A DNA stretch of 64,000 nucleotides from Deroplatys truncata (taxonomy: Eukaryota; Arthropoda; Insecta; Mantodea; Mantidae), in assembly GCA_030765065.1 (NCBI GenBank), contig CM060990.1, positions 215,303,290-215,367,289 on the forward strand, in the 5' to 3' direction. The first letter of the stretch is position 1. The number at the start of each line of letters is the position of its first letter. The translations under genes and the position numbers were made by a program. Of the stretch, positions 4,618-33,413 are shown one piece after another. The notes under the pieces were generated by a model that did no database searches, was not told where the DNA came from, and saw only the letters and a list, made by a program, of their open reading frames with translations.

Positions 4618-4628
4618 TCAGGAATCCA
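4618..4628. repeat. TSD of composite LINE B/C, 3' side
   Basis: TCAGGAATCCA, identical to 12,376-12,386. It abuts the (GAT)n tail of copy B, while its partner abuts the CCCCCAGGGGC 5' end at 12,375. The whole 7.7-kb interval therefore occupies one insertion site. Confidence 0.85.
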
Positions 4629-9435: not shown

Positions 9436-9477
9436 GCGGCTCAAAATTACCTTGTGCTTAATCTTTGGGCTCGAGCT

Positions 9478-10720: not shown

Positions 10721-11320
10721 AGCGAAAAAAAATCCTCCACCATTGCAACCGTCTCCGACCTCGGGCTCTGACTTCCCGGCCGTTACCCCGGCTTGAGTGA
10801 GTGGCCTATCTATACCTATCTCACCCGAGGGTCACACCTCCCAGAACATAGACAGAGGGACCCAATCGCCGTCAGAAGCCAGCAGCTCATGCAATGCCCC
10901 CCCCCGCGGGACTGCAGTTGAACCGCGGATACGAACACAAACCCTACATGACGACCCCGGGTGGTGGGGATGACGCCATTACCCACTCACCCAGCTGCGC
11001 ACCTCGTACGCGGGTATGCGTCAGGATGTGTCCACGGAGGATTAAAAGAAACCGTTAAAAGAAACTAAACGTGTGTGGGCGTTTCGGACTCAAGGCAGGC
11101 CGGCGAAGAAGTAAAAGAGACGTGTAAATGTATGGACGTGGGGCGAAATGTGCGGAAATTGAAGAGAAGTAAGAAACGACGGCGAGGGGCGACATGTAAT
11201 GAAATGCCCAAAACGCACGAGAGCCTACCTTGAGTCCCCCGGTCACGAGAACGAACCCACCTCGACCGGACGGGGATGAAGTGATGAAGATGGCGATGAG
11301 AGGCTCGGGAACCCCCGGGT

Positions 11321-12556: not shown

Positions 12557-12903
12557 CCACGTCATAACTTTGCAATTGTTTGTTCTATACTTTCATTTTG
12601 AAAGTGGTCTGGTAATGTGAACTTATTTAAATATCTTCCATCTATAGTGACTCCTAAGCTATTATGTTTCTTTACCATCCAAAAAACACTATTTATATAT
12701 TGTGATTTGCTAAGCTCAATGATGTTATTTTCCAGCATACTGGCTATTAATTTTTTAGCTTCGTTTCTTAGGTTCACTGGTAGATTATTATATTTTCTTC
12801 TGAATGTTGGTATATTTTCCACAGTGAAAGTGTATACATATAATGTACACCGTCCTGGAATTTCATTTAATACATGCTTACTGTCCTCTAGTACCTTCTT
12901 CAT
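12387..12903 (-). pseudogene. Ty3/gypsy RT N-terminal half
   Basis: Minus-strand RT fingers: LRNEAKKLIASMLENNIIEL, SQYINSVFWMVKKHNS, TIDGRYLNKFTLPDHF and, after a TA microsatellite, IDVTPSFWQVKLYPEVRAY and TAFQVFG. This order is diagnostic of Ty3/gypsy RT. The motif A aspartate (IDVTPSFWQ) is kept. A pure (TA)n run at about 12,510-12,553 lies within the coding sequence, just upstream of motif A, and must have expanded there after the element died or inserted without strong harm. The fragment ends where LINE B/C inserted and resumes at 4,617. Confidence 0.8.
12510..12553. repeat. (TA)n microsatellite inside gypsy RT
   Basis: About 22 TA units between the RT palm-entry segment and motif A of the gypsy remnant. 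Confidence 0.95.
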
Positions 12904-12975
12904 TATTATCTTTTCATTGTCAGTCAGTATTGTATTTGCCGTCAGTGAAACTATGTGTATTTTCCAGTCTTCTAT

Positions 12976-13560
12976 CTATGTTGCATAGCTATTTCCTACC
13001 TGCTCCAACACATTTTCTTCTACCAGCAGTTTCTCTGTATAAGGGTTCCCTTTGGTAAAGTCAGTTTTCTGTTCATTGAAGTTAAGAGTCAATAACCTTT
13101 CATTATTTTCCCCGCTTGCTTGGACATTTACAATTTGTATGAAGCATTCTTCTTCATATACATTTTCTTGTTCCATTCTTTGCACTCTACACACTTTATC
13201 TTTTATAAAAGGAACGTAAATATTCTTTTCTTCTTTATTTAATATAAGTCTGTCCTTCTTAAAATCAACTATCGCAGAGAACTCTATTAATATATCGCAA
13301 CCAATTATAACTTCACATATTAAGTTTGGAACTATTAAAAACATGATCTGTAATGTAATATCTGATATTTCTATAAGTATGAATGGTTGAGATTTAATAG
13401 TTAGGGTCATTTTACCTATGGCTACCCTACATCCAACATTATTTATTGGCGCTGACATTAGTTTTATGCCTTCATTTAACAGCTGTTCATAAAATTTCTT
13501 TGAGCAGATAGAGATTGATGATTCTGAATCTATTGCAACATTTACTTCCCTTCCTGCAAT
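12976..13560 (-). pseudogene. Ty3/gypsy aspartic protease region
   Basis: Minus-strand reading VNVAIDSESSISIC (about 13,510-13,550), then MSAPINNVGCRVAIGKMTL, then a segment with VPNLICEVIIGCDILIEF. The layout is that of a retroviral-type aspartic protease: a D-S/T-G active site, then the second hydrophobic-hydrophobic-G motif (IIGCDIL). The active-site triad reads D-S-E instead of D-S/T-G, which would abolish activity. It lies between gag (13,820 and up) and RT (12,903 and down), the normal gag-PR-RT order. Confidence 0.7.
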
Positions 13561-13819
13561 AAAAGTTTGAATATATGGTGATTCATATTGGTTGTCACAA
13601 TTTCCAGTGTTTGTATTAAGACGGTAACAATTAAAGTGTGTAGATATTTTATTTTTGCCACTTAGAGCAGAAGGTGCTTGTTACGAGAATCTACATCAGA
13701 CAATATGTAATGTAGTTTTCCTGGTGAGTATTTTCAGTACTTACAGGATTGCCATTTTGTACTGCAGTTACTGTTATTTCATTATCATTAACATTTGTGT
13801 GTGAGCCACGCTCCATAGC

Positions 13820-15683
13820 TCATGTTCTCCCATTATAATTGCTATGTGCTCCGCGTATATATCCTTCTGTATTTGTGTCGTTTGTGTAATTATAGTTGTG
13901 GTAGTTTCCTCTGTTTTGCATACTTCCTCTATGCTGAAATCGATTATTGCTTCTAGGTAAAGTAGAATTCTGCTGATTTATCCTTTCTATTCTTACATAA
14001 TTTATGTGTTCCTGTCTCCCTTGTTGTCGTGAATCTCTGATATTTTGTATAGTGTAATTGAATCTGTTTTGGCCGTGAAATTCATTATTACTCCTATTTT
14101 CATGGTGATGGCGTCTGTTATAAGGCATTTCATTACACTTATGATATCTAATTTGTCTGCCTCATCCTTGTGGACTCCAAATTTCATTACTATTATTACT
14201 TTCTTGCTTTTCTAATGATTGTATTAGCTTTGTCATCTCATAAATAGTTTTGGGTCTTGCAATTAGGATGTAGTTTTGTGTGTGAAGAGGGTAGTGTCTG
14301 ATAATTAAACTAATAAAATGTTCCTCATGCATGGCTGGAGTTAAATATCCGACATTCCTGCATACTTTATAAGATAATCTGTTATTGACAAGTTGTCATC
14401 TCTACTATATTGTGAATAACTTAGGCTTGCCCTAATCTTATGTTGCACAGTAGTATTCCAAAACTTATTCATAAATAAAAAAATGTCTCAAAATTCATTT
14501 CATATCTGCTAGCATATGTAACCATTCTAAGGTTTCATTATCCAAGCATTTTCTAACAAGGATCATTTTTAATGCTTCAGGCACATTCTTCAATTTAAAA
14601 TATTCTACTAGATCATGAATAAATTGTACTGGACTTGAGGAAGCATTAAAATAAGGTAAAGGTAATTCATTGAGCACAGAATGATAGTTTGGCACTTGAT
14701 TTGGTACATGCACATGTGTGTCATCATTATTGTTTTGTGTGTGAGAGGATGATGCTATGGAAAAAGCAGTAGCGTCTCTTGTATTATTAGTTAACAAAGG
14801 TGATACACTTCTTTCAGCACTTATATTATTATCATGCATTTGATTAGCATTTACAGAACTAGTTACATTTGCATTTATCTTTGGTATACTGGTACTTAAA
14901 GTTTCAAAATTATTTCTAAGTTTATTTATTTCTTTGCTACTTTCTTGTATTTTATCATTAATTTTGTCTATCATTGACATTACCTGTCCTTGCCCTGTGT
15001 GTGTTTCTTTAATTGCATCTGCATTTGTTTTAGCCATTTCATGCATTTTACTTATTTCCACTGTTAAATCTATTTGTATTTGCACAAGATCTGCATTTCT
15101 GTTTTCCACCATTGTTTTTAATTCTTCACCCCGTTTATCTAACTTGTTACAAATACCCTGTTTAGTATTAGTAAGTTTCAGTTCAATTTCGGATAGATTT
15201 TTTTAAAATGTGACTTGACAGTTTCTGTTCTCGCTGATTGCAAACTTTATTTACATTTAAATCTATATCATTTTGAAGTGCTTTATAAGGTTGTTCTATT
15301 TGGATTTCTAACCTGCTACTATCAGCTTTGCTTTCTTTCATACAATTTTGTATTTGCTTAGCTAGATCATTTTTTATACTAGATAGCTCTATATTAGTTT
15401 CAGTTAACTTATTATTCGTTTCAGTTAGCTTATTATTTAAGTCTTTTCTCAGCTCTGTACTAGTTTCAGTTAACTTATTACTTAATTCTACTCTCAACTT
15501 CGTACTATTTTCATTTAGCTTATTATTTAATTCTACTCTCATTTCAGATATTGCTTTTAGAAGGCACATAAAATTTTGTTGTGATGAGTTTTCTTGCTCT
15601 TGTTGGCTGGATATGTGAGGAATAGTGTTTCTTTCTATTGTTGTTCCCTGCACTAACATATATAAAGGTGATTGACCTTGCAT
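13820..15683 (-). pseudogene. Ty3/gypsy gag-like region
   Basis: Three minus-strand segments. 15,183-15,683 is a coiled-coil-rich N-terminus with repeated N-K-L-T-E-T units (seven-residue spacing, internal duplications). 14,495-15,112 holds the capsid-like core (LPYFNASSSPVQFIHDLVEY, then KCLDNETLEWLHM). 13,820-14,187 is an Arg/Asn/Gln-rich basic tail in place of a classic zinc knuckle. Frameshifts separate the segments near 15,150 and 14,200-14,490. It would form the particle core of the retrotransposon. The start MQGQSPLYML at 15,683 lies 79 bp from the palindrome insertion. Confidence 0.6.
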
Positions 15684-15762
15684 AATACTGTTATCTCTTT
15701 CTATGCCTAACTGTGAATTTACAGATGTTTGTTCTTCTACATCTAACCTACTTCATTTCCTC

Positions 15763-15768
15763 TAGCTC
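15763..15768. repeat. 6-bp TSD of the 17-kb palindrome, left
   Basis: TAGCTC, identical to 32,925-32,930; neither side can be extended (next bases A versus T on one side, C versus T on the other). Confidence 0.75.
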
Positions 15769-15804
15769 AGTAGTAAATAAGATGTTCCTTCAAGAGCAAA
15801 GGAA

Positions 15805-15970
15805 GATGCCGACAACTGATAAGATATAATCGACATCTGTAAACACATGTAAACATGTGTAACCGCTAATGACACGTCTAATGGATATGCGTGGTAATAC
15901 ATATGTAAACATGTGTAACCCGCTAATGACCGCCGGAGATGCCGACAACTGATAAGATATAATCGACATC
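15805..15970 (+). repeat. Subterminal 33-bp direct repeats, left end
   Basis: A 33-bp unit starting GATGCCGACAACTGATAAGA occurs at 15,805-15,837 and 15,938-15,970, and between them a second motif (ACATGTAAACATGTGTAAC then CGCTAATGAC) occurs twice. The mirror copies lie at 32,723-32,755 and 32,856-32,888. Paired subterminal repeats near each end would suit a transposase-binding role; that is inference. Confidence 0.8.
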
Positions 15971-16819
15971 GTTTGTTCTGTCTTGCCGCCTCCCGCCGGC
16001 TCCCTTTGAGGCAGCCGCCGAAGATGACCCCTACTTTTCGCCGGTTCTTTCCCCTTTCTTTGTGTGCTAACCTTAAAAGCCGCCGAAGATGACCCCTCCT
16101 TTTGGCCTCCTAGCATGTCGCCAGACTCTGTGTCGCTAGCCCCCGCCCCCTCGCTTTGTGGCCTTACCTAATGCCGATAGGCCCTACCCCCTCCCCCATG
16201 CGGTGTGGTCGCGTGCCATAGCGTCCTGTCTTGAGTTGCGCGGTAGGGAATGTTTTTTCTCGATGCCTGCCGCCCCTCGGCAAACATTATTTAAAAAAAG
16301 AATTGGCATTTTATGACTACTAATGCCCGCACATTGCATATCTAATGCTCCTCGATCAATTAAGTTTTTTGATTAATTAATTGTATATGAATTGACTCGA
16401 GCGCAAGTGGTAACGTTTGTATAAGTAGCACGCTCACGGGAACAGTCCGCCATGTAATGAAAAACCCCGCAACCTACTTCTGTCTGGTGATAACGGTAAT
16501 ATCCATGTATACACACATTAGCTGACAACGTTAGACGCTTTCACCACATAAAACACATTAATAGACTAAGATTGCATCCCGGATCTGTATACAGTCATTA
16601 GCGGACAATGTCAGTAATTGTTTTCCTAAGTGCTCTGAAAAATCCCAGACACTCAATGTAAATACCTTTTAGCTCGTAGAATTTCCATCACAAACTGTGG
16701 AAAAACCCAAGTCTAGACAACTTTTCCCTGATAATTAATGATTAAGTTTCATAGCTCTTATTTCTTTCAATAAAATATTGCGAATAAAGTATTCAGAATT
16801 CAGATTGGCGGAAAGAAAT

Positions 16820-17045
16820 ATTACATACGGCATTAAAAATAAATAAGCGTCTCATTGGTCGGTGTATACTACATATGTTATTAAAAATAAAATAAATAGG
16901 ATAACATTATAGTTAAATATTATAAATGTTATTAAAAAAATAAATGATTCGGTTAACATTATAGGTGAATACTATATATGTTATTAAAAAATAAATACGG
17001 TTAACATTATAGGTGAATATTACATACAAAATTAAAAATAAAAAT
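16820..17045 (+). repeat. AT-rich ~55-bp tandem repeats (left arm)
   Basis: About four to five units built around GTTATTAAAAATAAATA, then GGTTAACATTATAGGTGAATA, with 50-58 bp spacing. Mirrored at about 31,735-31,965. Confidence 0.75.
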
Positions 17046-17299
17046 GGCCTCGCTGATCAATGAATACAATTAAATATTTTTATTAATTAATTGTATAAGA
17101 ATTGACTTGTGCATTTTGGTTATTGCGCTGTGTCTCCCTAACGTTTCCAGATCTAGGATCGTTCCAGCTAGTAGCACGCTTCTGCCATCTACCTTCTAAA
17201 GTAAAGTTGTGCGCTTCTACCATCTTCATTCTAAAGTAAAGTTATAGAACAACGAGATAAAAACTAATCAATTCATTGGAATGCGCCGCGTCATTAGGG

Positions 17300-18620
17300 T
17301 ATTGTTCCAAGCTATCAGGGATGCCTGGGTTCGAATCCTAGGAGTGATTACAAATTCAGCTTCTAATAACTCAGAGACTAATTACGATAAAGACGTCAAA
17401 TAAAGTTTATTACATTAATGTCATTAGGTAGTTTCTTGTGAATGTATATTTGGGTACCTGGTGTTCTGGATTCAATCCTTAATTTTTAAATCGTCATTAT
17501 CTCGGAAACTAAGAAAGAGAGGGGTGGACCAAAGCATGATTGATAGCTCCTGTGATGGGTAATTAATACTGTATATAATTTTCAATCAGTTGTCCTTATT
17601 TCGAATCCCGATCTTTCAAGCACTTACTTAATTTTTCTCTATACTCTAGAATATATCACTTAGATTGATGCTGTAACTGCATACAGCACCTTTAAACATA
17701 TCAAACTAATTGTAAATAATTTTGCTTCTGGTGTCCTGGGTTCGAATACCGATAAAATGTAATTTAATTATAAATTAATTAACTCCTAAACTAATTAAGA
17801 TAAAGACGCCAAATAAACTTTATTGCCTTTATGTTATTAGGAAGTATCTTGAGAATGTGTAACTAGATACCTGACGTCCTGGGTTCGATCCTTAATTTTT
17901 AAATCACCATTATCTCAGAAACTAGGAGAGGTAGAAGGGTGAACTAAAGCATGATTGATAGCACCGGTGATGGGTATTGAATACTGTATATAATTTTCAA
18001 TCAGTTGTTCTTATTTCGAATCCCGATCTTTCAATCACTTACTTAATTTTTCTCTATACTCTAGAATATATCACTTAGATTGATGCTGTAACAGCATACA
18101 GCTCTTTTTAACATATCAAGCTAATATTGTAAATAAGTTTGTTTCTGGTGTCCTGGGTTCGAATACCGATAAAATGTATTTTAGTTATAAATTTAATAAC
18201 TCCTAAACTAATTAAGATAAAGACGCTAAATAAACTTTATTGCGTTTATGTTATTAGGTAGTATCTTGTGGATGTGTAATTAGATACCTGACGTCCTGGG
18301 TTGGATCCTTAATTTTTAAATCTTTATTATCTCGGGAACTAAGTGAGGTAGAGGAGTGGACCAAAGCATGATTGATAAGTTCTACACTGGGTGATTAATG
18401 CTGTTATAATTGCCAATCAGTTGTGCTTGGTTCGATTCCCCATCTTTTAATGACTTCCTTAATTTTCCTCTGTACACTAGAATATATCGCTTAGATGGAT
18501 GATGTACCTGCATACAGCTTTGTTTAACATGTTGAGCTAATATCATAAATTATTTTGTTCCTGGTGTTCTGGGTTCGAATACCGATTCAATGAAATTTAC
18601 TTATAAATTTAATAACTCGT
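17300..18620 (+). repeat. B-box-bearing higher-order satellite (left arm)
   Basis: Three units of 411, 417 and 416 bp, measured between CTGGGTTCGAA motifs at 17,325, 17,736, 18,153 and 18,569. Each unit holds three subunits of about 130-146 bp, and each subunit carries a TTCGAATCC-like motif. The first, 17,328-17,338, is GGTTCGAATCC, a perfect RNA polymerase III B box, and with its flanks forms a 5-bp T-arm-like stem. No A box or full tRNA cloverleaf is evident. I infer descent from a tRNA-related SINE that became a tandem array. Confidence 0.75.
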
Positions 18621-19779
18621 AATCTAATTTAGATAGACATGTCAAGGTAAACGCAAACAGAGTACCTAGTCCATAAATATCGTTACCATGACAAATATTA
18701 CTTTAAAGTACTCAAATCGAATCCCGAAGGGATGATTTCATATATCTTCAAGCCTATGGATCATATCAGGTTCTAATAAAGATTAAATGCTTGATGCTTA
18801 TGTGGGGGGAGCTAAAATACATTTATTAAAAGTATTACCCGGTTCGATTTAGAAGCTTAGAATCTGTGTAACTCTGGAAAAATTGCTTTTCTCGTGATTG
18901 TAGTGAAATGTAATGGTCTTTCTGTGAGAAGATGGAAAGGAAGAATTGAAAAGGGAATGAAAACATGAGATAATGTAGTATATACATACATTTAACTAAA
19001 TAAGGAGGAAAATCTTCTACGTTACCTTTTAAGCTTTTACTTTAAGTATTGTGATAATACAGCTGGAATTAACCTTGGTACAATAGGTGGTGGTGGTGGT
19101 GGTAGGCTTTGAAATTGAAATATATGTCTGAATGAGCGTGTGAGAATGCTTCTCTTGCTGGTGTGACAGCATAAGCAGGTAGTTATGAGACGAGTTTAAA
19201 CGTGTTTGATGCTGTCAGACATCCTGTCTCTAGGTGTGACGTCATAAACATCCTGCTTCTGGGCGTGAGGTTATATGGATGAGGTTAATACACGTTGAGC
19301 GATCATATACAGCTGGTTATGGAGCGAGTTTATGATTGATCTAAAAGGTTCGTGCTCCCTCTATAAATATGTTATAGGGGAAAGGATGCTCTCCTGAAAT
19401 ATTAGGCATCTAGACAGAAATTGTTCACAGAGCCGGAGACGTCAAGACGGATGGGACAGACTCCAAGTTCAAATCTTTAAACGGTAGGGCCGCCCCCTTT
19501 TTGCCTATCATGTCTCCTGAACCACCCTTACAGCTTAACATTACGTTACAATGCCACGTAACCATATTAACGACGGTCAGTCGCTCAGATCTTTGATTTT
19601 TTGTGGTTTTCACTGGTCTGCAGGCGAATGCCTGAGCACCGTATGCTACCACGTTTTTCATGTTATATCATTCTATCTTAACCTACGTGCTTCTAAGGCA
19701 CTCTGACTGGATTACCATCGGCCACTCGCTCAGACCTTTGATTTTTTCGTAGTTTTCCCTGGTCTGCATGCGAATGTCT

Positions 19780-20545
19780 GCTCAAAAAGATACTTGTCCC
19801 TTCCTCGGTTGGCGGTAAAGGAGTACGGTATACGATTATATGAGGAATATATGGAAAACGGATACGGTATTATAGACAGAAGCTGGTCCACTTTTGCGTT
19901 TATATGAGAAAGGATCGGCAAAACGAGGGTAGATGCGACGGTTCAAGGAGGAAAATGCATTTATAGGGAGAGATAGGGAATACCAGGGCTGATGCTGGGC
20001 TAGTCAGATGCTAAAGGAGGGAGGGATATGCTTTATACGAGAGAGATAGGGAATACAAGGAAAGATGCTATACTAAACAGGACTTGAAGGGTAGAATATG
20101 GCGTTTTATATGAGCGATATAGCGAACCGAGGAGAGGTATTAGGATAGGAGTTTTGAATGATAGAGTAGGCGTTTATATGCGAGAGATAGGGAATACGAG
20201 GGTCGATGCTAGGCTAGACGGGGTTGAAGGAGGAAATGCATATTATATGAGAGAGGTAGGGGAATATGAGGAGAAGTGCTAGGCTAGTCAGGAAGGTCTG
20301 AATGACATGGCATGCGTTTATATGGAGAGACAAGGAAACGAAGGTAGGTGCTAGGTTGAGAGAGTCTTCAAGGAGGAAAATGCATTTATATGAGAACGGT
20401 AGGGCATAAGAGGAGAGGTGCTAGTCTAGACATGGTTTGAGGAGTAGAGTATACGTTTATATGGGAGAAATATGGAAAACGGGAGAGATACAAGGATAGA
20501 CAGAGGTTGAAGGAGGAGGAATGCAGGTTTATACGGTAATATAGA
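19780..20545 (+). repeat. ~72-bp minisatellite (left arm)
   Basis: About ten diverged units of 68-76 bp. Each reads roughly GAGAGATAGGGAATACGAGG, then a GATGCTAGGCTAGAC segment, then GTTGAAGGAGGAAATGC and GTTTATATG. The mirror region in the right arm appears twice because of a 1,077-bp duplication. Its open readings are by-products of the repeat. Confidence 0.85.
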
Positions 20546-20756
20546 GAGTAATTCGATTATAAAACTTTTCTCATCCAGCGTTACAACACTTTTATATACT
20601 TATTTTCTAAACCTTACAAACTTTATATATGTTAAACAGTAGTGTGCGAGACAGAGAGGGACAAACTGTATATCGGTTTACAGTGAAGTATACGTCCTAA
20701 CCTATTCCCACCTTATATGTTCTGGATCTTCTCATTGTCTATTCATTCCTATCATC

Positions 20757-20930
20757 ATCTAACGTAACCACGTAACAAGACGTAACACAACGTAACATAA
20801 CAGCATGACAAGACGTCATACTAAGTAACATAACCACGCAACATCACGTGCCATCTCGTAACCAGAAACGTCACACGACGTAACAACACGTAGCAACTAT
20901 GTAACCAAGTAACAAAACGTAAGAACTACA
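20757..20930 (+). repeat. CGTAAC-rich simple repeat (left arm)
   Basis: Short irregular units such as ACAACGTAACATAAC, with about 10-bp periodicity; mirrored at about 26,780-26,950. Confidence 0.8.
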
Positions 20931-20954
20931 CTCTATGTGAAGAGTCGCTCACTT

Positions 20955-21459
20955 TGTAGGACTACAGACGATTATGAAAATGAAGACGATATAACACAGA
21001 AATACCATAAATGTCAAGTTCTTAAATTCTGCAAGTGTAATAAAACTACTTCCAAGTGCACTGTTTGTAAGAAAATGCACAAAGAAACCTGATTATAAAT
21101 GTGTCAATTGTGTAGAGTATGAACTAGCTAAAATTGCTGTAAACATGAATAATTCAATTTTTCTACGCAATTAAAACTAAGTAAACTCCCTCATTTGCTT
21201 ACTCTTGTTTGGGTTTTATGGGTTTCAATGAAATTTATTTATTTTTTAATAATTGATATTATTTGTGTTTTGTTGTAGAATTCACAATTCAGCATTTTAA
21301 CTGGCATATAAATCATGTAAAAACATTAAAATATACTAATTGAATACAAATATAAATTTGAAATAATGATGCAGAATGTTAATGTTATATGGTAGGGGTC
21401 AAAATGATCCTCTGGATGTTAGAGAGGGCAGGGAAAGGTCGGGTTGTCCTAGCGTTAAT
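20955..21459 (+). mobile_element. Possible piggyBac-like 3' end with Cys-rich segment
   Basis: A Cys/Lys-rich reading (KCQVLKFCKCNKTTSKC, then TVCKK, then after a frame change DYKCVNC) is followed 320 bp later by a terminus which, read inwards, is TTAACGCTAGGACAACCCG. A palindromic GGATCATTTTGATCC-type motif lies 40-60 bp inside it. TTAA targets and this style of end occur in insect piggyBac-like elements. The sequence right of TTAA is RT coding sequence, as if a TTAA-targeting element had landed in a LINE. The upstream end and the catalytic core were not found. Mirrored at about 26,246-26,750. Confidence 0.35.
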
Positions 21460-21840
21460 TGATAAATTAGAAAACTAGCAGTTCAGGGATTAACAAAGGC
21501 TTGGATCAATTCATATCTAAGAAACAGAACATAATGTATTGAAATAAATTACATAAATAAGAAAAATGAAACAATGGAAAAAATAAAATCACACTATGAA
21601 CTATTAAACAGGGGGGTTCCGCAAGGTTCTAAACCACGGCCATTCTTATTTTTGGTATATGTGAATGATATATTTGAGCTAATTTTAAGAAACAGCGGCT
21701 TAGCCATTCGATATGCAGATGACATGACATTAATAATTAAAGTCAAAACAATAATTGAGGTTGAGAAAAAGCAAATTCTATGCTAAAACTAGCACAACAG
21801 CATTATGATAGTTTGGATATGGTATTAAATGTTAAAAAGA
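21460..21840 (+). pseudogene. Non-LTR RT remnant in left arm
   Basis: Reads TKAWINSYLRNRT, then after a stop INYINKKNETMEKIKSHYEL, then LLNRGVPQGSKPRPFLFLVY (RT motif B) and AIRYADDMTLIIKV (motif C, YADD). The order and spacing match CR1/jockey-type LINE RTs. Only the palm is present; the N-terminal half is cut at the TTAA junction at 21,456-21,459. The mirror copy at about 25,865-26,245 is nearly identical, so the fragment was in place before the arms were duplicated or homogenised. Confidence 0.75.
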
Positions 21841-22336
21841 CAGCCTGAATGAATTCTGAATTAAAAAAGAGCTCCGCAATTAGTAACAAAATAAAAATAG
21901 ATAAGAAATGGAGAAATTATTCCAGAAACCAACTACAGTGACTTTATAGGCACGATAAATGACTAACAACTGAATTGGAAATGATACATATGGCACATTA
22001 ATAAAAAATAAATAAATAAATAAAGGTATATATATAATGAAACATAAGCAAGTAGACAGAGGGTCATCGATACACAGAAAACCAGGAGTTGTATGTACTG
22101 AGAACATAGATTAGTATAGGCAAACAACAAAGAAGTGAATTTATAGTGTAAATAGCCTAATATTTTCAAATATTATTATAGTCTAAAAGTATATAACTTA
22201 ATTATGTACTGAGTATTGAGAAATAAACGTTATTCATTATTCACTAATCTCAGATCACTGCAATTGTATTGAATCATTCACAATTGCTAATGTCATTCAA
22301 CTTTCATTTGTCTCTGATACATAAACAAATTGCAAA

Positions 22337-23010
22337 ATGGAGAAGGACGAAAGTAATAAAAAGGCTCAGGCAGCAAATTTTAAGAAAGAAGAGAAAGATA
22401 TATGACCGACATTGTTTTAGAACACAAATTAGTGTTGAAAATAAAATGACTGATAGCTCTGCTAAGCGTAAGGAAGAGACATGGAAATAAATTGCAAATG
22501 AGTACAATTCTAGGAAGATCATCCAGTGTGGATGAAAATCCCTGAAATGATATTATGAGAGCATAAAGAAAACAATGAAGCAAGCAAATGCCATTGACAA
22601 GGTACGATTGTACAAAACTGGAGGCGTATGTATGTACCGCCTTTCTTAGACAATAGTAGCCAAATAACAATTGTTGCTCTTCTATTCAATCGCCAATGAG
22701 TTTGATGATGAAGTTGGATTCCATTCAGAAGTAATCACCACAGTGAAGGACATTGAAATAGTAAATCCAGATCCAACATGTCCTTCAGCAATTTTAATAA
22801 CAGGTGAGGAATTTGAAGAAAGAGAAAGTGTAAAGGTGGCGTCTGCAATTCCCATACAGAACTTTCAACTCCATTGCCTGAAAAGAACAAAGAAGACATA
22901 AGGGAGGGTTTTAATGAGAGGAGGCTTGAGTGTTTGGAAAAAGAGTACACAGTGAAAATGAAGATCTTGAAATTGGAACTAGAAATGAAAGAATCTCAGA
23001 AAAATTAAGT
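22337..23010 (+). pseudogene. Myb/SANT-like (MSANTD3-type) DNA-binding protein remnant
   Basis: Starting at MEKDESNKKAQAANFKKEEK (22,337), the sequence shows in order: an acidic/basic first helix; after a frame change DIVLEHKLVLKNKMTDSSAK and RKEETW; IANEYNSRKIIQ; after stops YYESIKKTMKQANAIDKVRL and YKTGG; and, further down, a C-terminal helix RRLECLEKEYTVKMKILKLE. This is the layout of the Myb/SANT-like domain of MSANTD3-related proteins (conserved Trp, N-S, KTGG, basic coiled C-terminus). Several stops and frame changes make it a pseudogene. The mirror copy at 24,695-25,368 is nearly identical. Whether it was a gene of the element or a captured host gene is unknown. Confidence 0.6.
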
Positions 23011-23329
23011 GTTGTTAATAACTTATACAACCATAAATATATTACAAAAAATGTAATGAAACAGGCAAGGAATAATATGGATAAAGAAACTGTTAAGCAG
23101 ATCTACTACGCTTTCATTTATTTGCACATACTCAAAGTATGGAATTACACTTTCGGGAAATATTGCAGAAATAGACATGAAAAAGATATTTACGCAAAAA
23201 AATAAAAAAAGGACTTAGAATATTAGCAAAAGTGGATAAACAGCATTCATGTAAACCAATTTTTAAAAATCATAAAATTTTAACTAAATTAAATTGAATT
23301 TTACTCTTTCTCCATCCCTGCCTCCCTCC

Positions 23330-23378
23330 CTTTCTGTCTTTCTTTCTTTCTTTCTTTCTGTCTTTCCTTCTTTCTTTA
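23330..23378 (+). repeat. (CTTT)n tract, left arm
   Basis: CTTT/TTTC microsatellite with CTGT interruptions; mirrored at about 24,325-24,375. Confidence 0.9.
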
Positions 23379-23830
23379 TATTCATTTAAATAGTTTTATA
23401 TTTATAATGCTGAAGCTTATATACCTGTGCATCTGAAAGGTCTTATTTTGAACTCATTATTACTGTAATATTTAATTGCATAATTTCAGAATGTAATAGA
23501 GCTTTCAATAGGTAACGCTAAAATTACTGTTTATGGAAAGAGGATAGGTGCACTATAAGATACAACCTGAGCCAAAAGAACATTTACAGAATGAAAACTA
23601 CACCATTTTCATTTCACTATTCTTTTCTTCTTGAATCGTGAATTATGCCTCCAGAATTCACAATCTTCATTTTCATTTGGTGCCCCGTTTCTTTCTGTTT
23701 TTATCTTAAAACAAGATTAAATATATTCCTTACCTAGAACACCCTAGGGTGAGTGGTAGATGCTATCCAACATCCTAGCCTGCAGGGGTAGGAGCTGTCT
23801 TCAGCCATAACGCATATCACCAACACCACC

Positions 23831-23880
23831 GTCGCCACCTGTGCTACCACCACCACCAACTACTACTCACATTTACTGAA
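23831..23880. other. Spacer at palindrome axis
   Basis: Fifty bases, rich in ACC and ACT trinucleotides (ACCACCACCACCAACTACTA), that do not pair with the opposite arm. The axis lies near 23,855. Confidence 0.85.
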
Positions 23881-24694
23881 GGTGGGTTGGTGATATGTGT
23901 TATGGCTGAAGACAGCTCCTACCCCTGCAGGCTAGGCTGTTGGATAGCATCTACCACTCACCCTAGGGTGTTCTAGGTAAGGAATATATTTAATCTTGTT
24001 TTAAGATAAAAACAGAAAGAAACGGGGCACCAAATGAAAATGTAGATTGTGAATTCTGGAGGCATAATTCACGATTCAAGAAGGAAAGAATAGTGAAATG
24101 AAAATGGTGAGTTTTCATTCTGTAAATGTTCTTTTGGCTCAGGTTGTATCTTATAGTGCACCTACCCTCTTTCCATAAACAGTAATTTTAGCGTTACCTA
24201 TTGAAAGCTCTATTACATTCTGAAATTATGCAATTAAATATTACAGTAATAATGAGTTCAAAATAAGACCTTTCAGATGCACAGGTATATAAGCTTCAGC
24301 ATTATAAATATAAAACTATTTAAATGAATATAAAGAAAGAAGGAAAGAAAGAAAGAAACAAAGAAAGACAGAAAGGGAAGGAGGCAGGGATGGAGAAAGG
24401 GTAAAATTCAATTTAATTTAGTTAAAATTTTATGATTTTTAAAAATTGGTTTACATGAATGCTGTTTATCCACTTTTGCTAATATTCTAAGTCCTTTTTT
24501 TATTTTTTTGCGTAAATATCTTTTTCATGTCTATTTCTGCAATATTTCCCGAAAGTGTAATTCCATACTTTGAGTATGTGCAAATAAATGAAAGCGTAGT
24601 AGATCTGCTTAACAGTTTCTTTATCCATATTATTCCTTGCCTGTTTCATTACATTTTTTGTAATATATTTATGGTTGTATAAGTTATTAACAAC

Positions 24695-25368
24695 ACTTAA
24701 TTTTTCTGAGATTCTTTCATTTCTAGTTCCAATTTCAAGATCTTCATTTTCACTGTGTACTCTTTTTCCAAACACTCAAGCCTCCTCTCATTAAAACCCT
24801 CCCTTATGTCTTCTTTGTTCTTTTCAGGCAATGGAGTTGAAAGTTCTGTATGGGAATTGCAGACGCCACCTTTACACTTTCTCTTTCTTCAAATTCCTCA
24901 CCTGTTATTAAAATTGCTGAAGGACATGTTGGATCTGGATTTACTATTTCAATGTCCTTCACTGTGGTGATTACTTCTGAATGGAATCCAACTTCATCAT
25001 CAAACTCATTGGCGATTGAATAGAAGAGCAACAATTGTTATTTGGCTACTATTGTCTAAGAAAGGCGGTACATACATACGCCTCCAGTTTTGTACAATCG
25101 TACCTTGTCAATGGCATTTGCTTGCTTCATTGTTTTCTTTATGCTCTCATAATATCATTTCAGGGATTTTCATCCACACTGGATGATCTTCCTAGAATTG
25201 TACTCATTTGCAATTTATTTCCATGTCTCTTCCTTACGCTTAGCAGAGCTATCAGTCATTTTATTTTCAACACTAATTTGTGTTCTAAAACAATGTCGGT
25301 CATATATCTTTCTCTTCTTTCTTAAAATTTGCTGCCTGAGCTTTTTTATTACTTTCGTCCTTCTCCAT
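24695..25368 (-). pseudogene. Myb/SANT-like remnant, mirror copy
   Basis: Reverse-strand twin of 22,337-23,010. The readings at 24,804-25,034 and 24,500-24,775 are residue-for-residue the same as their left-arm partners, and the reading at 25,215-25,436 differs from its partner by one residue (KKLRQ versus KRLRQ). The same disabling stops are shared, so decay pre-dated duplication or the arms have since been homogenised. Confidence 0.6.
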
Positions 25369-25864
25369 TTTGCAATTTGTTTATGTATCAGAGACAAATG
25401 AAAGTTGAATGACATTAGCAATTGTGAATGATTCAATACAATTGCAGTGATCTGAGATTAGTGAATAATGAATAACGTTTATTTCTCAATACTCAGTACA
25501 TAATTAAGTTATATACTTTTAGACTATAATAATATTTGAAAATATTAGGCTATTTACACTATAAATTCACTTCTTTGTTGTTTGCCTATACTAATCTATG
25601 TTCTCAGTACATACAACTCCTGGTTTTCTGTGTATCGATGACCCTCTGTCTACTTGCTTATGTTTCATTATATATATATACCTTTATTTATTTATTTATT
25701 TTTTATTAATGTGCCATATGTATCATTTCCAATTCAGTTGTTAGTCATTTATCGTGCCTATAAAGTCACTGTAGTTGGTTTCTGGAATAATTTCTCCATT
25801 TTTATCTATTTTTATTTTGTTACTAATTGCGGAGCTCTTTTTTAATTCAGAATTCATTCAGGCT

Positions 25865-26245
25865 GTCTTTTTAAAATTTAATACCATATCCAAACTATCA
25901 TAATGCTGTTGTACTAGTTTTAGCATAGAATTTGCTTTTTCTCAACCTCAATTATTGTTTTGACTTTAATTATTAATGTCATGTCATCTGCATATCGAAT
26001 GGCTAAGCCGCTGTTTCTTAAAATCAGCTCAAATATATCATTCACATATACCAAAAATAAGAATGGCCGTGGTTTAGAACCTTGCGGAACCCCCCTGTTT
26101 AATAGTTCATAGTGTGATTTTATTTTTTCCATTGTTTCATTTTTCTTATTTATGTAATTTATTTCAATACATTGTGTTCTGTTTCTTAGATATGAATTGA
26201 TCCAAGCCTTTGTTAATCCCTGAACGGCTAGTTTTCTAATTTATC
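25865..26245 (-). pseudogene. Non-LTR RT remnant, mirror copy
   Basis: Twin of 21,460-21,840, with the same 70-residue open stretch holding the GVPQG and YADD motifs (25,920-26,132) and the same TTAA junction on its outer side (about 26,246-26,249). Confidence 0.75.
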
Positions 26246-27034
26246 AATTAACGCTAGGACAACCCGAACTTTCCCTGCCCTCTCTAACATCCAGAGGATC
26301 ATTTTGATCCCTACCATATAACATTAACATTCTGCATCATTATTTCAAATTTATATTTGTATTCAATTAGTATATTTTAATGTTTTTACATGATTTATAT
26401 GCCAGTTAAAATGCTGAATTGTGAATTCTACAACAAAACACAAATAATATCAATTATTAAAAAATAAATAAATTTCATTGAAACCCACAAAACCCAAACA
26501 AGAGTAAGCAAATGAGGGAGTTTACTTTGTTTTAATTGCATAGAAAAATTGAATTATTCATGTTTACAACAATTTTAGCTAGTTCATACTCTACACAATT
26601 GACACATTTATAATCAGGTTTCTTTGTGCATTTTCTTACAAACAGTGCACTTGGAAGTAGTTTTATTACACTTGCAGAATTTAAGAACTTGACATTTATG
26701 GTATTTCTGTGTTATATCGTCTTCATTTTCATAATCGTCTGTAGTCCTACAAAGTGAGCGACTCTTCACATAGAGTGTAGTTCTTACGTTTTGTTACTTG
26801 GTTACATAGTTGCTACGTGTTGTTACGTCGTGTGACGTTTCTGGTTACGAGATGGCACGTGATGTTGCGTGGTTATGTTACTTAGTATGACGTCTTGTCA
26901 TGCTGTTATGTTACGTTGTGTTACGTCTTGTTACGTGGTTACGTTAGATAATGATAGGAATGAATAGACAATGAGAAGATCCAGAACATATAAGGTGGGA
27001 ATAGGTTAGGACGTATACTTCACTGTAAACCGAT

Positions 27035-29188
27035 ATACAGTTTGTCCCTCTCTGTCTCACACACTACTGTTTAACATATATAAAGTTTGTAAGGTTTAGA
27101 AAATAAGTATATAAAAGTGTTGTAACGCTGGATGAGAAAAGTTTTATAATCGAATTACTCTCTATATTACCGTATAAACCTACATTCCTCCTCCTTCAAC
27201 CTCTGTCTATCCTTGTATCTCTCCCGTTTTCCATATTTCTCCCATATAAACGTATACTCTACTCCTCAAACCATGTCTAGACTAGCACCTCTCCTCGTAT
27301 GCCCTACCGTTCTCATATAAATGCATTTTCCTCCTTGAAGACTCTCTCAACCTAGCACCTACCTTCGTTTTCATTGTCTCTCCATATAAACGCATGCCAT
27401 GTCATTCAGACCTTCCTGACTAGCCTAGCACTTCTCCTCATATTCCCCTACCTCTCTCATATAAGATGCATTCCCTCCTTCAACCCCGTCTAGCCTAGCA
27501 TCGACCCTCGTATTCCCTATCTCTCGCATATAAACGCCTACTCTATCATTCAAAACTCCTATCCTAATACCTCTCCTCAGTTCGCTATATCGCTCATATA
27601 AAACGCCATATTCTACCCTTCAAGTCCTGTTTAGTATAGCATCTCTCCTTGTATTCCCTATCTCTCTCGTATAAAGCATATCCCTCCATCCTTTAGCATC
27701 TGACTAGCCTAGCATCAGCCCTGGTATTCCCTATCTCTCCCCTATAACTGCATTTTCCTCCTTGAACCGTCGCATCTACCCTCGTTTTCCCTATCCTTTC
27801 CCATATAAACGCAAAAGTGGACCAGCTTCTGTCTATAATACCGTCTCCGTTTTCCATATATTCCTCATATAATCGTATACCGTACTCCTTAACCGCCAAC
27901 CGAGGAAGGAACAAGTATCTTTTTGAGCTGACATTCGCATGCAGACGAGGGAAAACTACGAAAAAATCAAAGGTCTGAGCGAGTGGCCGACGGTAATCCA
28001 GTCAGAGTGCCTTAGAAGCACGTAGGTTAAGATAGAATGATATAACATGAAAAACGTGATAGCATACGGTGCTCAGGCATTCGCCTGCAGACCAGGGAAA
28101 ACCACAAAAAAATACAGTTTGTCCCTCTCCGTCTCGCACACTACTGTTTAACATATATAAAGTTTGTAAGGTTTAGAAAATAAGTATATAAAAGTGTTGT
28201 AACGCTGGATGAGAAACGTTTTATAATCGAATTACTCTCTAAATTACCGTATAAACATACATTCCTCCTCCTTCAACCTCTGTCTATCCTTGTATCTCTC
28301 CCGTTTTCCATATTTCTCCCATATAAACGTATACTCTACTCCTCAAACCATGTCTAGACTAGCTTCTCTCCTCGTATGCCCTACCGCTCTCATATAAATG
28401 CATTTTCCTCCTTGAAGACTCTCTCAACCTAGCACCTTCCTTCGTTTCCCTTGTCTCTCCATATAAACGCATGCCATGTCATTCAGACCTTCCTGACTAG
28501 CCTAGCACTTCTCCTCATATTCCCCTACCTCTCTCATATAAGATGCATTCCCTCCTTCAACCCCGTCTAGCCTAGCATCGACCCTCGTATTCCCTATCTC
28601 TCGCATATAAACGCCTACTCTATCATTCAAAACTCCTATCCTAATCCCTCTCCTCGGTTCGCTATATCCCTCATATAAAACGCCATATTCTACCCTTCAA
28701 GTCCTGTTTAGTATAGCATCTTTCCTTGTATTCCCTATCTCTCTCGTGTAAAGCATATCCCCCCCTTCTTTAGCATCTGACTAGCCTAGCATTAGCCCTG
28801 GTATTCCCTATCTCTCCCCTATAAATGCATTTTCCTCCTTGAACCGTCGCATCTACCCTCGTTTTGCCGATCCTTTCTCATATAAACGCAAAAGTGGACC
28901 AGCTTCTGTCTATAATACCGTCTCCGTTTTCCATATATTCCTCATATAATCGTATACCGTACTCCTTAACCGCCACCCGAGGAAGGGACAAGTATCTTTT
29001 TGAGCAGACATTCGCATGCAGACCAGGGAAAACTACGAAAAAATCAAAGGTCTGAGCGAGTGGCCGATGGTAATCCAGTCAGAGTGCCTTAGAAGCACGT
29101 AGGTTAAGATAGAATGATATAACATGAAAAACGTGGTAGCATACGGTGCTCAGGCATTCGCCTGCAGACCAGTGAAAACCACAAAAAA
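27035..29188 (-). repeat. 1,077-bp tandem duplication, right arm only
   Basis: Unit 1 (27,035-28,111) and unit 2 (28,112-29,188) both begin ATACAGTTTGTCCCTCTC and run through the 72-bp minisatellite to a CCAGGGAAAACCAC/CCAGTGAAAACCAC boundary in an A-rich run. The left arm has one copy. The junction lies in an A7-T stretch, compatible with unequal exchange or replication slippage at microhomology. Confidence 0.9.
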
Positions 29189-30159
29189 ATCAAAGATCTG
29201 AGCGACTGACCGTCGTTAATCTGGTTACGTGGCATTGCAACGTAATGTTAAGCTGTAAGGGTGGTTCAGGAGACATGGTAGGCAAAAAGGGGGCGGCCCT
29301 ACCGTTTAAAGATTTGAACTTGGAGTCTATCCCATCCGTCCTGACGTCTCCGGCTCTGTGAACAATTTCTGTCTAGATGCCTAATGTTTCAGGAGAGAAT
29401 CCTTTCACCTATAACATATTTATAGAGGGAGCACGAACCTTTTAGATCAATCATAAACTCGCTCCATAACCAGCTGTATATGATCGCTCAACGTGTATTA
29501 ACCTCAGCCATATAACCTCACGCCCAGAAGCAGGATGTTTATGACGTCACACCTAGAGACAGGATGTCTGACAGCATCAAACACGTTTAAACTCGTCTCA
29601 TAACTACCTGCTTATGCTGTCACACCAGCAAGAGAAGCATTCTCACACGCTCATTCAGACATATATTTCAATTTCAAAGCCTACCACCACCACCACCTAT
29701 TGTACCAAGGTTAATTCCAGCTGTATTATCACAATACTTAAAGTAAAAGCTTAAAAGGTAACGTAGAAGATTTTCCTCCTTATTTAGTTAAATGTATGTA
29801 TATACTAGATTATCTCATGTTTTCATTCCCTTTTCAATTCTTCCTTTCCATCTTCTCACAGAAAGACCATTACATTTCACTACAATCACGAGAAAAGCAA
29901 TTTTTCCAGAGTTACACAGATTCTAAGCTTCTAAATCGAACCGGGTAATACTTTTAATAAATGTATTTTAGCTCCCCCCACATAAGCATCAAGCATTTAA
30001 TCTTTATTAGAACCTGATATGATCCATAGGCTTGAAGATATATGAAATCATCCCTTCGGGATTCGATTTGAGTACTTTAAAGTAATATTTGTCATGATAA
30101 CGATATTTAAGGACTAGATACTCTGTTTGCGTTTACCTTGACATGTCTATCTAAATTAG

Positions 30160-31470
30160 ATTACGAGTTATTAAATTTATAAGTAAATTTCATTGAATCG
30201 GTATTCGAACCCAGAACACCAGGAACAAAATAATTTATGATATTAGCTCAACATGTTAAACAAAGCTGTATGCAGGTACATCATCGATCTAAGTGATATA
30301 TTCTAGTGTACAGAGGAAAATTAAGGAAGTCATTAAAAGATGGGGAATCGAACCAAGCACAACTGATTGGCAATTATAACAGCATTAATCACCCAGTGTA
30401 GAACTTATCAATCATGCTTTGGTCCACTCCTCTACCTCACTTAGTTCCCGAGATAATAAAGATTTAAAAATTAAGGATCCAACCCAGGACGTCAGGTATC
30501 TAATTACACATCCACAAGATACTACCTAATAACATAAACGCAATAAAGTTTATTTAGCGTCTTTATCTTAATTAGTTTAGGAGTTATTAAATTTATAATT
30601 AAATTACATTTTATCGGTATTCGAACCCAGGACACCAGAAACAAACTTATTTACAATATTAGCTTGATATGTTAAAAAGAGCTGTATGCTGTTACAGCAT
30701 CAATCTAAGTGATATATTCTAGAGTATAGAGAAAAATTAAGTAAGTGATTGAAAGATCGGGATTCGAAATAAGGACAACTGATTGAAAATTATATACAGT
30801 ATTCAATACCCATCACCGGTGCTATCAATCATGCTTTGGTTCACCCTTCTACCTCTCCTAGTTTCTGAGATAATGGTGATTTAAAAATTAAGGATCGAAC
30901 CCAGGACGTCAGGTATCTAGTTACACATTCTCAAGATACTTCCTAATAACATAAAGGCAATAAAGTTTATTTGGCGTCTTTATCTTAATTAGTTTAGGAG
31001 TTAATTAATTTATAATTAAATTACATTTTATCGGTATTCGAACCCAGGACACCAGAAGCAAAATTATTTACAATTAGTTTGATATGTTTAAAGGTGCTGT
31101 ATGCAGTTACAGCATCAATCTAAGTGATATATTCTAGAGTATAGAGAAAAATTAAGTAAGTGCTTGAAAGATCGGGATTCGAAATAAGGACAACTGATTG
31201 AAAATTATATACAGTATTAATTACCCATTACAGGAGCTATCAATCATGCTTTGGTCCACCCCTCTGTCTTTCTTAGTTTCCGAGATAATGACGATTTAAA
31301 AATTAAGGATTGAACCCAGAACACCAGGTACCCAAATATACATTCACAAGAAACTACCTAATGACATTAATGTAATAAACTTTATTTGACGTCTTTATCG
31401 TAATTAGTCTCTGAGTTATTAGAAGCTGAATTTGTAATCACTCCTAGGATTCGAACCCAGGCATCCCGGA
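30160..31470 (-). repeat. B-box-bearing satellite, mirror copy
   Basis: Reverse complement of 17,300-18,620, with the same three higher-order units of about 415 bp (GGTATTCGAACCCAG motifs near 30,205, 30,620 and 31,035). Confidence 0.75.
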
Positions 31471-31734
31471 TAACTTGGAACAATACCCTAATGTCGCGGC
31501 GCATTCCAATGAATTGATAAGTTTTTATCTCATTGTTCTATAACTTTACTTTAGAATGAAGCTGGTAGAAGCGCACAACTTTACTTTAGAAGGTAGATGG
31601 CAGAAGCGCGCTACTAGCTGGAACGATCCTAGATCTGGAAACGTTAGGGAGACACAGCGCAATAAGCAAAATGCACAATTCAATTCATATACAATTAATT
31701 AATAAAAATATTTAATTGTATTCATTGATCAGCG

Positions 31735-31965
31735 AGGCCATTTTTATTTTTAATTTTGTATGTAATATTCACCTATAATGTTAACCGTATTTATTTTTTA
31801 ATAACATATATAGTATTCACCTATAATGTTAACCGAATCATTTATTTTTTTAATAACATTTATAATATTTAACTATAATGTTATCCTATTTATTTTATTT
31901 TTAATAACATATGTAGTATACACCGATCAATGAGAAGCTTATTTATTTTTAATGCCGTATGTAAT
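31735..31965 (-). repeat. AT-rich ~55-bp repeats, mirror copy
   Basis: Mirror of 16,820-17,045. Confidence 0.75.
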
Positions 31966-32722
31966 ATTTCTTTCCGCCAATCTGAATTCTGAATACTTTA
32001 TTCGCAATATTTTATTGAAAGAAATAAGAGCTATGAAACTTAATCATTAATTATCAGGGAAAAAATTGTCTAGACTTGGGTTTTTCCACAGTTTGTGATG
32101 GAAATTCTACGAGCTAAAAGGTATTTACATTGAGTGTCTGGGATTTTTCAGAGCACTTAGGAAAACAATTACTGACATTGTCCGCTAATGACTGTATACA
32201 GATCCGGGATGCAATCTTAAAGTCTATTAATGTGTTTAATGTGGTGAAAGCGTCTAACGTTGTCAGCTAATGTGTGTATACATGGATATTACCGTTATCA
32301 CCAGACAGAAGTAGGTTGCGGGGTTTTTCATTACATGGCGGACTGTTCCCGTGAGCGTGCTACTTATACAAACGTTACCACTTGCGCTCGAGTCAATTCA
32401 TATACAATTAATTAATCAAAAAACTTAATTGATCGAGGAGCATTAGATATGCAATGTGCGGGCATTAGTAGTCATAAAATGCCAATTCTTTTTTTAAATA
32501 ATGTTTGCCGAGGGGCGGCAGGCATCGAGAAAAAACATTCCCTACCGCGCAACTCAAGACAGGACGCTACGGCACGCGACTAGACCGCATGGGGGAGGGG
32601 GTAGGACCTATCGGCATTAGGTAAGAACACAAAGAGAGAGGTGGCGGGGCCTAGCGACACGAGACCAGGCGGTATCTAAGACCTCAAAGGGAGCCGACGG
32701 GAGGCGGCAACACAGAACAAAC

Positions 32723-32888
32723 GATGTCGATTATATCTTATCAGCTGTCGGCATCTCCGGCGGTCATTAGCGGGTTACACATGTTTACATATGTATTACC
32801 ACGCATATCCATTAGACGTGTCATTAGCGGTTACACATGTTTACATGTGTTTACAGATGTCGATTATATCTTATCAGTTGTCGGCATC
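32723..32888 (-). repeat. Subterminal 33-bp direct repeats, right end
   Basis: Mirror of 15,805-15,970. The two 33-bp units sit at 32,723-32,755 (one A-to-G type change) and 32,856-32,888. Confidence 0.8.
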
Positions 32889-32924
32889 TTCCTTTGTTCT
32901 TGAAGGAACATTTTATTTACTACT

Positions 32925-32930
32925 TAGCTC
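32925..32930. repeat. 6-bp TSD of the palindrome, right
   Basis: TAGCTC, partner of 15,763-15,768. Confidence 0.75.
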
Positions 32931-33413
32931 TGACTGCAAATTTAGATTATAATCAGTAATGGCTGACCTATCCTCTCCTACTTCACATATTTCCATTGTT
33001 TTCTGTTTCCATTTTATTTTGTATATTTTCTCTTGTTACTTTTAGTTTAGAATTGTTGAATTTTAACTTTCCACTTCTTAACAACATGTAATTATTTTAA
33101 TTATATATATATTCATAACCATCTTGAAAATTATATAAATATATATTATTGGAATTTTCTGACCTTTTCTCTGGCTGTGTTAGTAAATCTTTATACTCTG
33201 GTGTTCCCTTGTAGATTCTAGTTGAATTGTTGACTGCGTGCCCCGTACTCCTGAAAGAATTGTGTTTGCTGTCCTTGGATGATGTTGTATGATGATCTTG
33301 AAGTTCTTGTAGTGAAATCTTGTAGTTTTGTCGATTCTGGTAGGTCTCCGATGCTCCTTAATTTCTTCTTTTCACTTATTCTCGCCTATTCTTGCCCCAC
33401 GTTTAGGCTCCAA
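32931..33413 (-). other. Probable gypsy 5' leader with degenerate tRNA-Lys primer site
   Basis: If the palindrome is removed, this AT-rich sequence lies directly upstream of the gypsy gag on the minus strand. At 33,395-33,413 the plus strand reads GCCCCACGTTTAGGCTCCA. This is 16 of 18 positions plus one inserted base against the 3' end of insect tRNA-Lys including CCA, in the orientation expected for a minus-strand primer-binding site. Similar CGCCCCACGTTTAC motifs recur at about 33,529, 33,568 and 33,594. The LTR should start near 33,414, but without the 3' LTR in the window it cannot be delimited. Confidence 0.35.

Follow-up and report, generated by a model that had tools for sequence, protein, structure and literature searches.

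Transposable elements of the FB/Galileo type carry 7-9-bp target-site duplications (TSDs), P- or FB-type ends, and cut-and-paste transposases. Identical complementary termini result when a strand switches to itself as a template, as in the copy-back defective genomes of RNA viruses and in palindromic adenovirus variants. The Drosophila foldback element Tetris is described as having long inverted repeats with internal tandem repeats and as being apparently non-autonomous (PMC4079207). For adeno-associated virus (AAV), 5' and 3' snap-back genomes (SBGs) are reported as defective, self-complementary copies of one genome end, with a rep-side and a capsid-region class (PMC8235507). Vertebrate Mavericks, or Polintons, are reported to be ~17 kb long with (AGT)2//(ACT)2 or (AG)3//(CT)3 ends and a 6-bp TSD (PMC8097293). 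Here, we describe a palindromic element at positions 15769-32924 of a 64,000-nt stretch of the genome of the mantis Deroplatys truncata (assembly GCA_030765065.1, contig CM060990.1, here C16:215303290-215367289). This whole stretch is referred to as the window.

The element is very probably a gene-less palindromic snap-back (copy-back) derivative of a Polinton/Maverick that was mobilised in trans. Its ends, its duplications, and its partners make it a non-autonomous Polinton, and its form is new within the literature searched, as no palindromic or snap-back Polinton was found among the matches listed in open-licence literature. FB, Galileo, and Tetris of Drosophila likewise have long inverted repeats with tandem repeats but differ in ends and partners; 6-bp TSDs and Polinton ends are found here instead of 7-9-bp TSDs and P- or FB-type ends. 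The RNA-virus copy-backs and adenovirus palindromes differ in that they are neither chromosomal nor inherited. Polinton/Maverick elements (adintoviruses) are alike in their ends, 6-bp TSD, length of ~17 kb, and the genes found in same-ended copies (PMC8097293), but they combine a short terminal repeat with genes, whereas here the inverted repeat is the whole gene-less element. The arm-type and capsid-end duplications of Polintons described below resemble the two AAV classes (PMC8235507). The AAV forms, however, are particle genomes of a single-stranded parvovirus, whereas these are germline insertions with TSDs, and one fold occurs at ~20 places.

The two arms, of 8056 and 9039 bp, surround a 61-nt loop. 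An earlier note on this DNA, made from the sequence alone, had given arms of 8.06 and 9.04 kb, which is correct, and a spacer of 50 bp, which is too short. The arms differ by 95 mismatches at 7950 aligned positions (1.19%) and by 13 indels, the largest being a 1078-bp tandem copy found only in the right arm and 97 bp found only in the left. The longest true inverted match scores 14,955 bits. Shuffling the element in two-base blocks, five times over, left inverted matches that scored 25-36 bits at best, nothing comparable to the real arms. The duplicated TAGCTC stands directly before AGTAGTAAATAAGATGTTCC at the left boundary and directly after GGAACATTTTATTTACTACT at the right one. This is a perfect 6-bp duplication, and both it and the two ends lie exactly where the earlier note had placed them. 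The termini AGTAGT...ACTACT carry the Polinton/Maverick motif (AGT)2//(ACT)2. The features of the element, with strand where one applies, are as follows.

15763-15768: left TSD, TAGCTC, from the sequence
15769-23824, plus strand: left arm, 8056 bp, from the arm alignment
15769-16011, plus strand: terminal repeat common to gene-bearing Polinton copies, starting AGTAGT = (AGT)2; positions 30-240 were compared at both ends of 10 elements
16012-16108, plus strand: 97 bp found in the left arm only, from the arm comparison
17364-18635, plus strand: 417-bp repeat array of the left arm, 3.1 copies
19597-20671, plus strand: 1.08-kb G-rich unit, single in the left arm, apparently recombined from the two copies of the right arm
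21535-21783, plus strand: reverse transcriptase fragment within the left arm (Pfam RVT_1, E 1.7e-7)
23825-23885: 61-nt loop at the fold; CAAC/GTTG, the fold microhomology, closes the stem
23886-32924, minus strand: right arm, 9039 bp, inverted copy of the left, from the arm alignment
27035-28111, minus strand: 1.08-kb unit, inner right-arm copy
28112-29190, minus strand: 1.08-kb unit, outer right-arm copy
30148-31421, minus strand: 415-bp repeat array of the right arm, 3.1 copies
32682-32924, minus strand: right terminal repeat, ending ACTACT = (ACT)2
32925-32930: right TSD, TAGCTC, from the sequence
12562-15762, minus strand: insertion target, which we take to be a decayed gypsy-like element from its likeness and a weak protease match

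No long open frame occurs anywhere in 15769-32924, and ten left-arm frames searched against Pfam gave no Polinton domain, only the reverse transcriptase fragment. The palindrome does not carry the PolB, integrase, and capsid genes of an autonomous Polinton, in agreement with the earlier note, which saw no Polinton gene in it.

The 4.29-Gb assembly (818 contigs) was searched with the first 100 bp of the element, as the earlier note had proposed, and 40 of 522 first-look candidates were scored. At least 63 matches were obtained, together with at least 15 convergent pairs of ends besides the window, spaced 1.7-26 kb apart. Ends were read in 14 elements, which comprise the window, 11 of the 15 convergent pairs, and two elements from capsid pairs. 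A 6-bp duplication was present in all 14 (TAGCTC, GTCAGG, CATGTT, GGTATT, GAGAGA, GATAGA, CTTATT, CACGTC, CTCGTA, GAGGGT, AGTCGT, ATTATT, CATGCT, and AATGAA), with two caveats: GAGAGA of C9 implies that one end has lost a base, and ATTATT of C16_489 lies inside an ATT repeat. Nine elements are 16.3-18.4 kb and five are 5.8-12.1 kb long. Their termini are AGTAG or a close form, with the variants AGTAGG, AGTAGA, and AGTAGC. The terminal repeat is 96.9% identical over 223 bp to that of L015, which is the left half of an element whose right half is the capsid-bearing L016. Other palindromes exist in the host genome, including C16_1.6, which is 17.3 kb long with arms 98.9% alike and an arm sequence mostly different from that of the window. 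Ends without a consistent TSD, or arms confined to this locus, would have spoken against the transposon proposed in the earlier note; both were looked for, and neither was found. The end pattern and the L015 integrase had no match in viral contigs. In four members, ~185-240 extra terminal bases lie beyond the window-type end (L009 from 117, L020 from 64, L017 from 111, and L022 from 94). These bases are alike at both ends, and therefore termini seem to be symmetrically exchanged.

Genes are carried by four of the 11 pair elements fetched (C16_247, C16_345, C9, and C16_489), and Pfam was run on C16_247 and C16_345. Both of these, in that order, gave the double-jelly-roll capsid PF21738 (E 3.9e-107 and 1.2e-107), an rve integrase (E 2.1e-8 and 3.2e-9), a Pox_A32 ATPase (E 4.6e-4, below its cut-off, and 1.8e-5), and phospholipase A2 PF08398 (E 4.2e-13 and 1.1e-12). 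The named relatives of the capsid protein among 120 listed are insect proteins, one of which is called adintovirus hexon. C16_247 also contains fragments that we take to be PolB on the basis of a motif, with no Pfam hit. Same-ended gene-bearing relatives and TSDs thus support the first alternative of the earlier note, a non-autonomous snap-back derivative of a Polinton. Of the same-ended partner with PolB and integrase for which it proposed a test, integrase was found, and capsid as well; for PolB, only fragments were seen. Genome-wide, a loose first look gave 7124 capsid candidates, and one of the best 126, which were scored, has an internal stop. The scored frames are nearly all open, and many are equal in score. 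The Polinton load is large, and recent activity is suggested. C16_489 (L027 284-3464 with L028 9117-6344) has both genes and inverted arms of ~3.2 kb that are 94% alike, and stands between ordinary terminal repeats and full palindromes.

The same-ended relatives include copies in which the arm is not folded. In C16_345, window arm positions 2008-8013 are present in a single copy, 95.4% alike, which adjoins the integrase gene. A single-copy arm also joins the integrase/PolB-remnant side in L015, L018, L027, L041, L044, and L045. Where the fold site is kept, the arm runs through the loop and ~230 bp further into a PolB remnant, and the integrase side beyond this remnant is reached in L027, L041, L044, and L045. 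In the unfolded order, seen in eight single-site loci, CAAC, the loop, and GGTGGTGTTG are followed by TAAACATATG. In the folded order, GGTGGTGTTG is followed by GTGATATG, which is the complement of the arm upstream of CAAC. The fold sequence was read in 12 copies (the window, L010, and L029-L038), and their loops have diverged. Comparison of the folded and unfolded sequences indicates that the fold used GTTG on CAAC, a 4-nt microhomology. One genome end appears to have been copied and folded at a microhomology, as is characteristic of a snap-back genome. L015 (at 7211) and L018 (at 7061) share a junction from armB 8996 to the integrase side, which removes the fold site and the PolB remnant.

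The genome was searched with a 24-base pattern across the fold, allowing up to 2 mismatches, and with the reversed pattern as a control. The folded junction occurs at 21 places (17 exact, 3 with one mismatch; reversed control 4), and 12 of these are the copies read. The unfolded junction occurs at 38 places (19 exact; control 0); three of the convergent pairs among them are closely spaced, the mark of palindromes folded deeper. Since the same fold is found at 17 (exact) to 21 places, the palindrome probably spread as a unit. C13 (TSD GATAGA) has this fold sequence, termed type 1, inside a long palindrome with its own duplication at a site different from that of the window; the two copies are 93.6% alike in the outer and 97.4% in the inner part. 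In a further folded copy, the palindrome extends past the fetched stretches (98.7% over 1.68 kb). C4, C2, C8_10, C16_294, and C16_565 look like type-1 palindromes with sequence lost around the centre, although separate folds are also possible.

Folds of other kinds are present in the same genome. Two of the three deeper-folded pairs were read. In L047 (98.7% over 1423 bp) and in L048 (99.7% over 1958 bp), the fold lies in or beside the integrase gene, which requires at least one further folding event. Among the best 126 of the 7124 capsid candidates, at least three divergent pairs lie 9-22 kb apart, of which two were read. The element at C10:54200851-54217255 (TSD CATGCT) has 5.5-kb capsid-end arms (100% over 3849 bp and 99.5% over 1650 bp), and the 5.4 kb between them correspond to the C16_247 stretches with ATPase, integrase, and PolB remnant. 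Its flanks at 54200851 and 54217255 (L053 and L054) are presumably tRNA-gene-like. At C4:95170568-95188950, the arms are at least 1.7 kb long at 99.9%, and the centre is not palindromic.

The following mechanism is proposed. In an ancestral Polinton, the polymerase region would have been largely replaced by ~8-9 kb of non-coding cargo at one end; relatives show such cargo beside a PolB remnant and an integrase. During replication, a nascent 3' end at GGTGGTGTTG may have folded onto CAAC ~61 nt upstream on the same strand. Extension of the folded 3' end would then have copied its own strand back to the starting terminal repeat, as the junction suggests. The product would be a gene-less palindrome with two identical termini, ~18 kb long before deletion and close to the 16-18 kb of the long relatives. 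Termini are what integrase and PolB-type replication act on, so helper Polintons could replicate and integrate the palindrome in trans, and this would result in the 6-bp duplications observed. The fold would thereby have reached ~20 places, its arms would be rewritten in every cycle like ordinary terminal repeats, and its centre would decay by deletion after insertion. Other snap-backs appear to have arisen in this genome, as integrase folds and inverted duplications of the capsid end. We infer this sequence of snap-back priming and spread in trans from the fold junction, from TSDs that lie outside the arms, and from the copies.

The relationship between the arms is informative about how they are kept alike. 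Both inner arms could be aligned in five of the 12 folded copies read; in the rest, an arm is cut, deleted, or split. In all five, a copy's two arms group as sisters (starred support) and differ by 0.50-1.09%, compared to 0.80-2.06% for the nearest other copy. Among 76 variable sites, 32 vary between copies with no difference between the two arms of any copy, and at the remaining 44 the arms differ in some copy. L035 has an identical 5222/7979 deletion in both arms, and both arms of L029 carry the same foreign outer segment. Sister arms in five of five copies point to a single template for both arms. For the sub-terminal segment, seven of eight elements, both gene-bearing ones among them, have mutually closest ends; those of C9 are 1.23% apart, and the nearest other end is at 2.45%. 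These data fit the idea that every cycle rewrites both halves from a single strand, and chromosomal gene conversion or repeated new folding would also be possible. Ordinary duplex replication alone, with conversion between the arms in the chromosome, could account for the arm identity, and we regard this as a real if rather unlikely possibility. Long palindromes in animal chromosomes do undergo conversion, and arm divergence is lower near the centre (0.3 and 0.6% in the bins of 21769-23768) than in the outermost two bins (3.1 and 1.4%). The outer segments, however, also differ more between copies, so that this gradient may reflect mutability. Moreover, the ends of gene-bearing copies, which are ~15 kb apart, are also alike within a copy, albeit in only two sub-terminal comparisons (two of two).

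A second possibility, which we consider unlikely, is that a hot spot in gene-bearing parents gave rise to the same fold again and again, each time independently. The palindromes with the same fold are about as distant from each other as from gene-bearing copies, the folded copies do not form a single supported clade, and L043 stops at the same 3' base (GTGTTG) and joins elsewhere, all of which speak for recurrent folding. There is, on the other hand, no special hairpin at the site, and the nearest other copy of a folded copy is also folded in 11 of 12 cases (L035 is the exception). The seven unfolded single-site loci included in the tree group as a clade (100/98), and in these loci the match ends at a deletion border at armB 7665 (four visibly jump to 6755). 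This border is absent from all ten folded copies in which it would be visible; L035 and L037 lack the region.

Several observations weigh against a single snap-back that spread in trans with its arms rewritten. On the arm tree, the folded copies need four label changes (shuffled mean 8.3), or three with one arm per copy, and 0% of 200 bootstrap trees have one label change; two gene-bearing copies, L015 and L018, are placed among the palindromes. Over the 211-bp terminal core, the ends of an element are strictly closest in four of ten elements and tied in four, and for C4 and C9 a closer end is found in another element. C8 is the sole exception to within-element likeness in the sub-terminal segment. 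No same-ended partner with a complete PolB was found among the elements read, and open PolB frames of up to 1350 aa elsewhere in the genome (76 of 11882 candidates scored) were not linked to this terminal repeat. In four of the eight single-site loci (L039, L040, L042, and L046), only a short PolB-remnant stretch is present within the 3 kb fetched. The hairpin at the fold site is not unusually strong (DNA fold z -0.24), clear microhomology was not seen at the C10 fold, and the fetched outer stretches of the copy at C4:849 have no inverted match to each other.

The remaining explanations were rejected. Inverted duplications are a known outcome of broken-end repair, but a chromosomal inverted duplication following an ordinary Polinton insertion is very improbable, because the two arms are exactly bracketed by the 6-bp TSD, the same fold recurs at ~20 places, and at least the window and C13, each with a TSD of its own, carry it within long palindromes at different sites; the external duplications of independent copies contradict this explanation. 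A new class of foldback transposons unrelated to Polintons, which was the second alternative of the earlier note, would agree with the lack of a protein gene in the element and with arms that have tandem repeats like those of known foldback elements, but it is extremely improbable because the terminal repeats, 6-bp TSDs, and (AGT)2 ends are common to copies bearing Polinton capsid and integrase genes. Long-read and amplified libraries are known to contain fold-back reads, but an assembly artefact is hardly credible in view of the arm mutations (95 mismatches), the 13 separate indels, the 1078-bp difference between the arms, and the same fold at ~20 places, with diverged loops in the 12 copies read.

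The internal sequence of the snap-back palindrome also bears on its history. The 1.08-kb unit is present twice in the right arm (97.1% alike) and once in the left. At sites where one of the three differs, the left-arm unit sides within the first 370 alignment columns with the outer right copy 10 times and with the inner once; after column 370, it sides with the inner copy at 14 sites and with the outer at 5. The simplest reading of this pattern is that both arms originally had two copies and that the left arm lost one through recombination, which would give an ancestral arm of ~9 kb and an element of ~18 kb. Rfam gave nothing above the gathering score in 15600-33100, and two weak matches to microRNA models at the fold merely reflect the hairpin. 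The 417-bp repeats (17364-18635 and 30148-31421) hold several GGTTCGAATCC-like words, which we take to be similar to the tRNA B box; ARAGORN found no tRNA. A Cys-rich fragment at 20913-21089, presumably piggyBac-like, was not recognised by Pfam, nor was its longer form in L020.

When the flanks are rejoined over a single TAGCTC, a frame opens with a start codon and runs on for 27 more codons across the insertion point until a stop; the long frame 15183-15752 continues, shifted by one base. The target gave a weak protease match (RVP_2, E 0.0028, under the Pfam cut-off), and its labels "gypsy" and "gag" are our assumption from this match and from likeness. The earlier note had placed the insertion in a gypsy leader; the rejoined flanks suggest the start of a decayed gag-like gene instead, and the gypsy identity remains presumptive. 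Jockey-like long interspersed nuclear element (LINE) copies in inverted blocks flank the element (window 53504-59294 and 1735-12375); they are 83-89% alike, with one 999-aa open frame. The named relatives of the window LINE are from a spider, a shrimp virus, and a bacterial bin. A Tc1/mariner-type transposase fragment lies at window 51514-52077 (HTH_Tnp_Tc3_2, E 2.7e-13).

To our knowledge, Polinton replication is understood mainly through inference from Polinton genes. A palindrome that keeps its arms alike during spread would be a natural record of this replication. It suggests that a single strand serves, at some step, as the template for both halves, and the same step would keep terminal repeats alike. 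It also indicates that copy-back genomes, which are defective genomes of a class known from RNA viruses and AAV, can be generated, fixed, and amplified by virus-like DNA elements, and that a single germline can offer a countable series of snap-back events. More tentatively, and as a speculation to which we give rather little weight, the element may be a heritable hairpin-genome parasite. Such a defective-interfering Polinton would multiply as a self-complementary strand, rewrite one arm from the other in every cycle, and compete with its helpers to be replicated and packaged, under a size limit of close to 17 kb; if transcribed, it would give double-stranded RNA against them. Very long hairpins of this kind may feed small-RNA defence or destabilise chromosomes.

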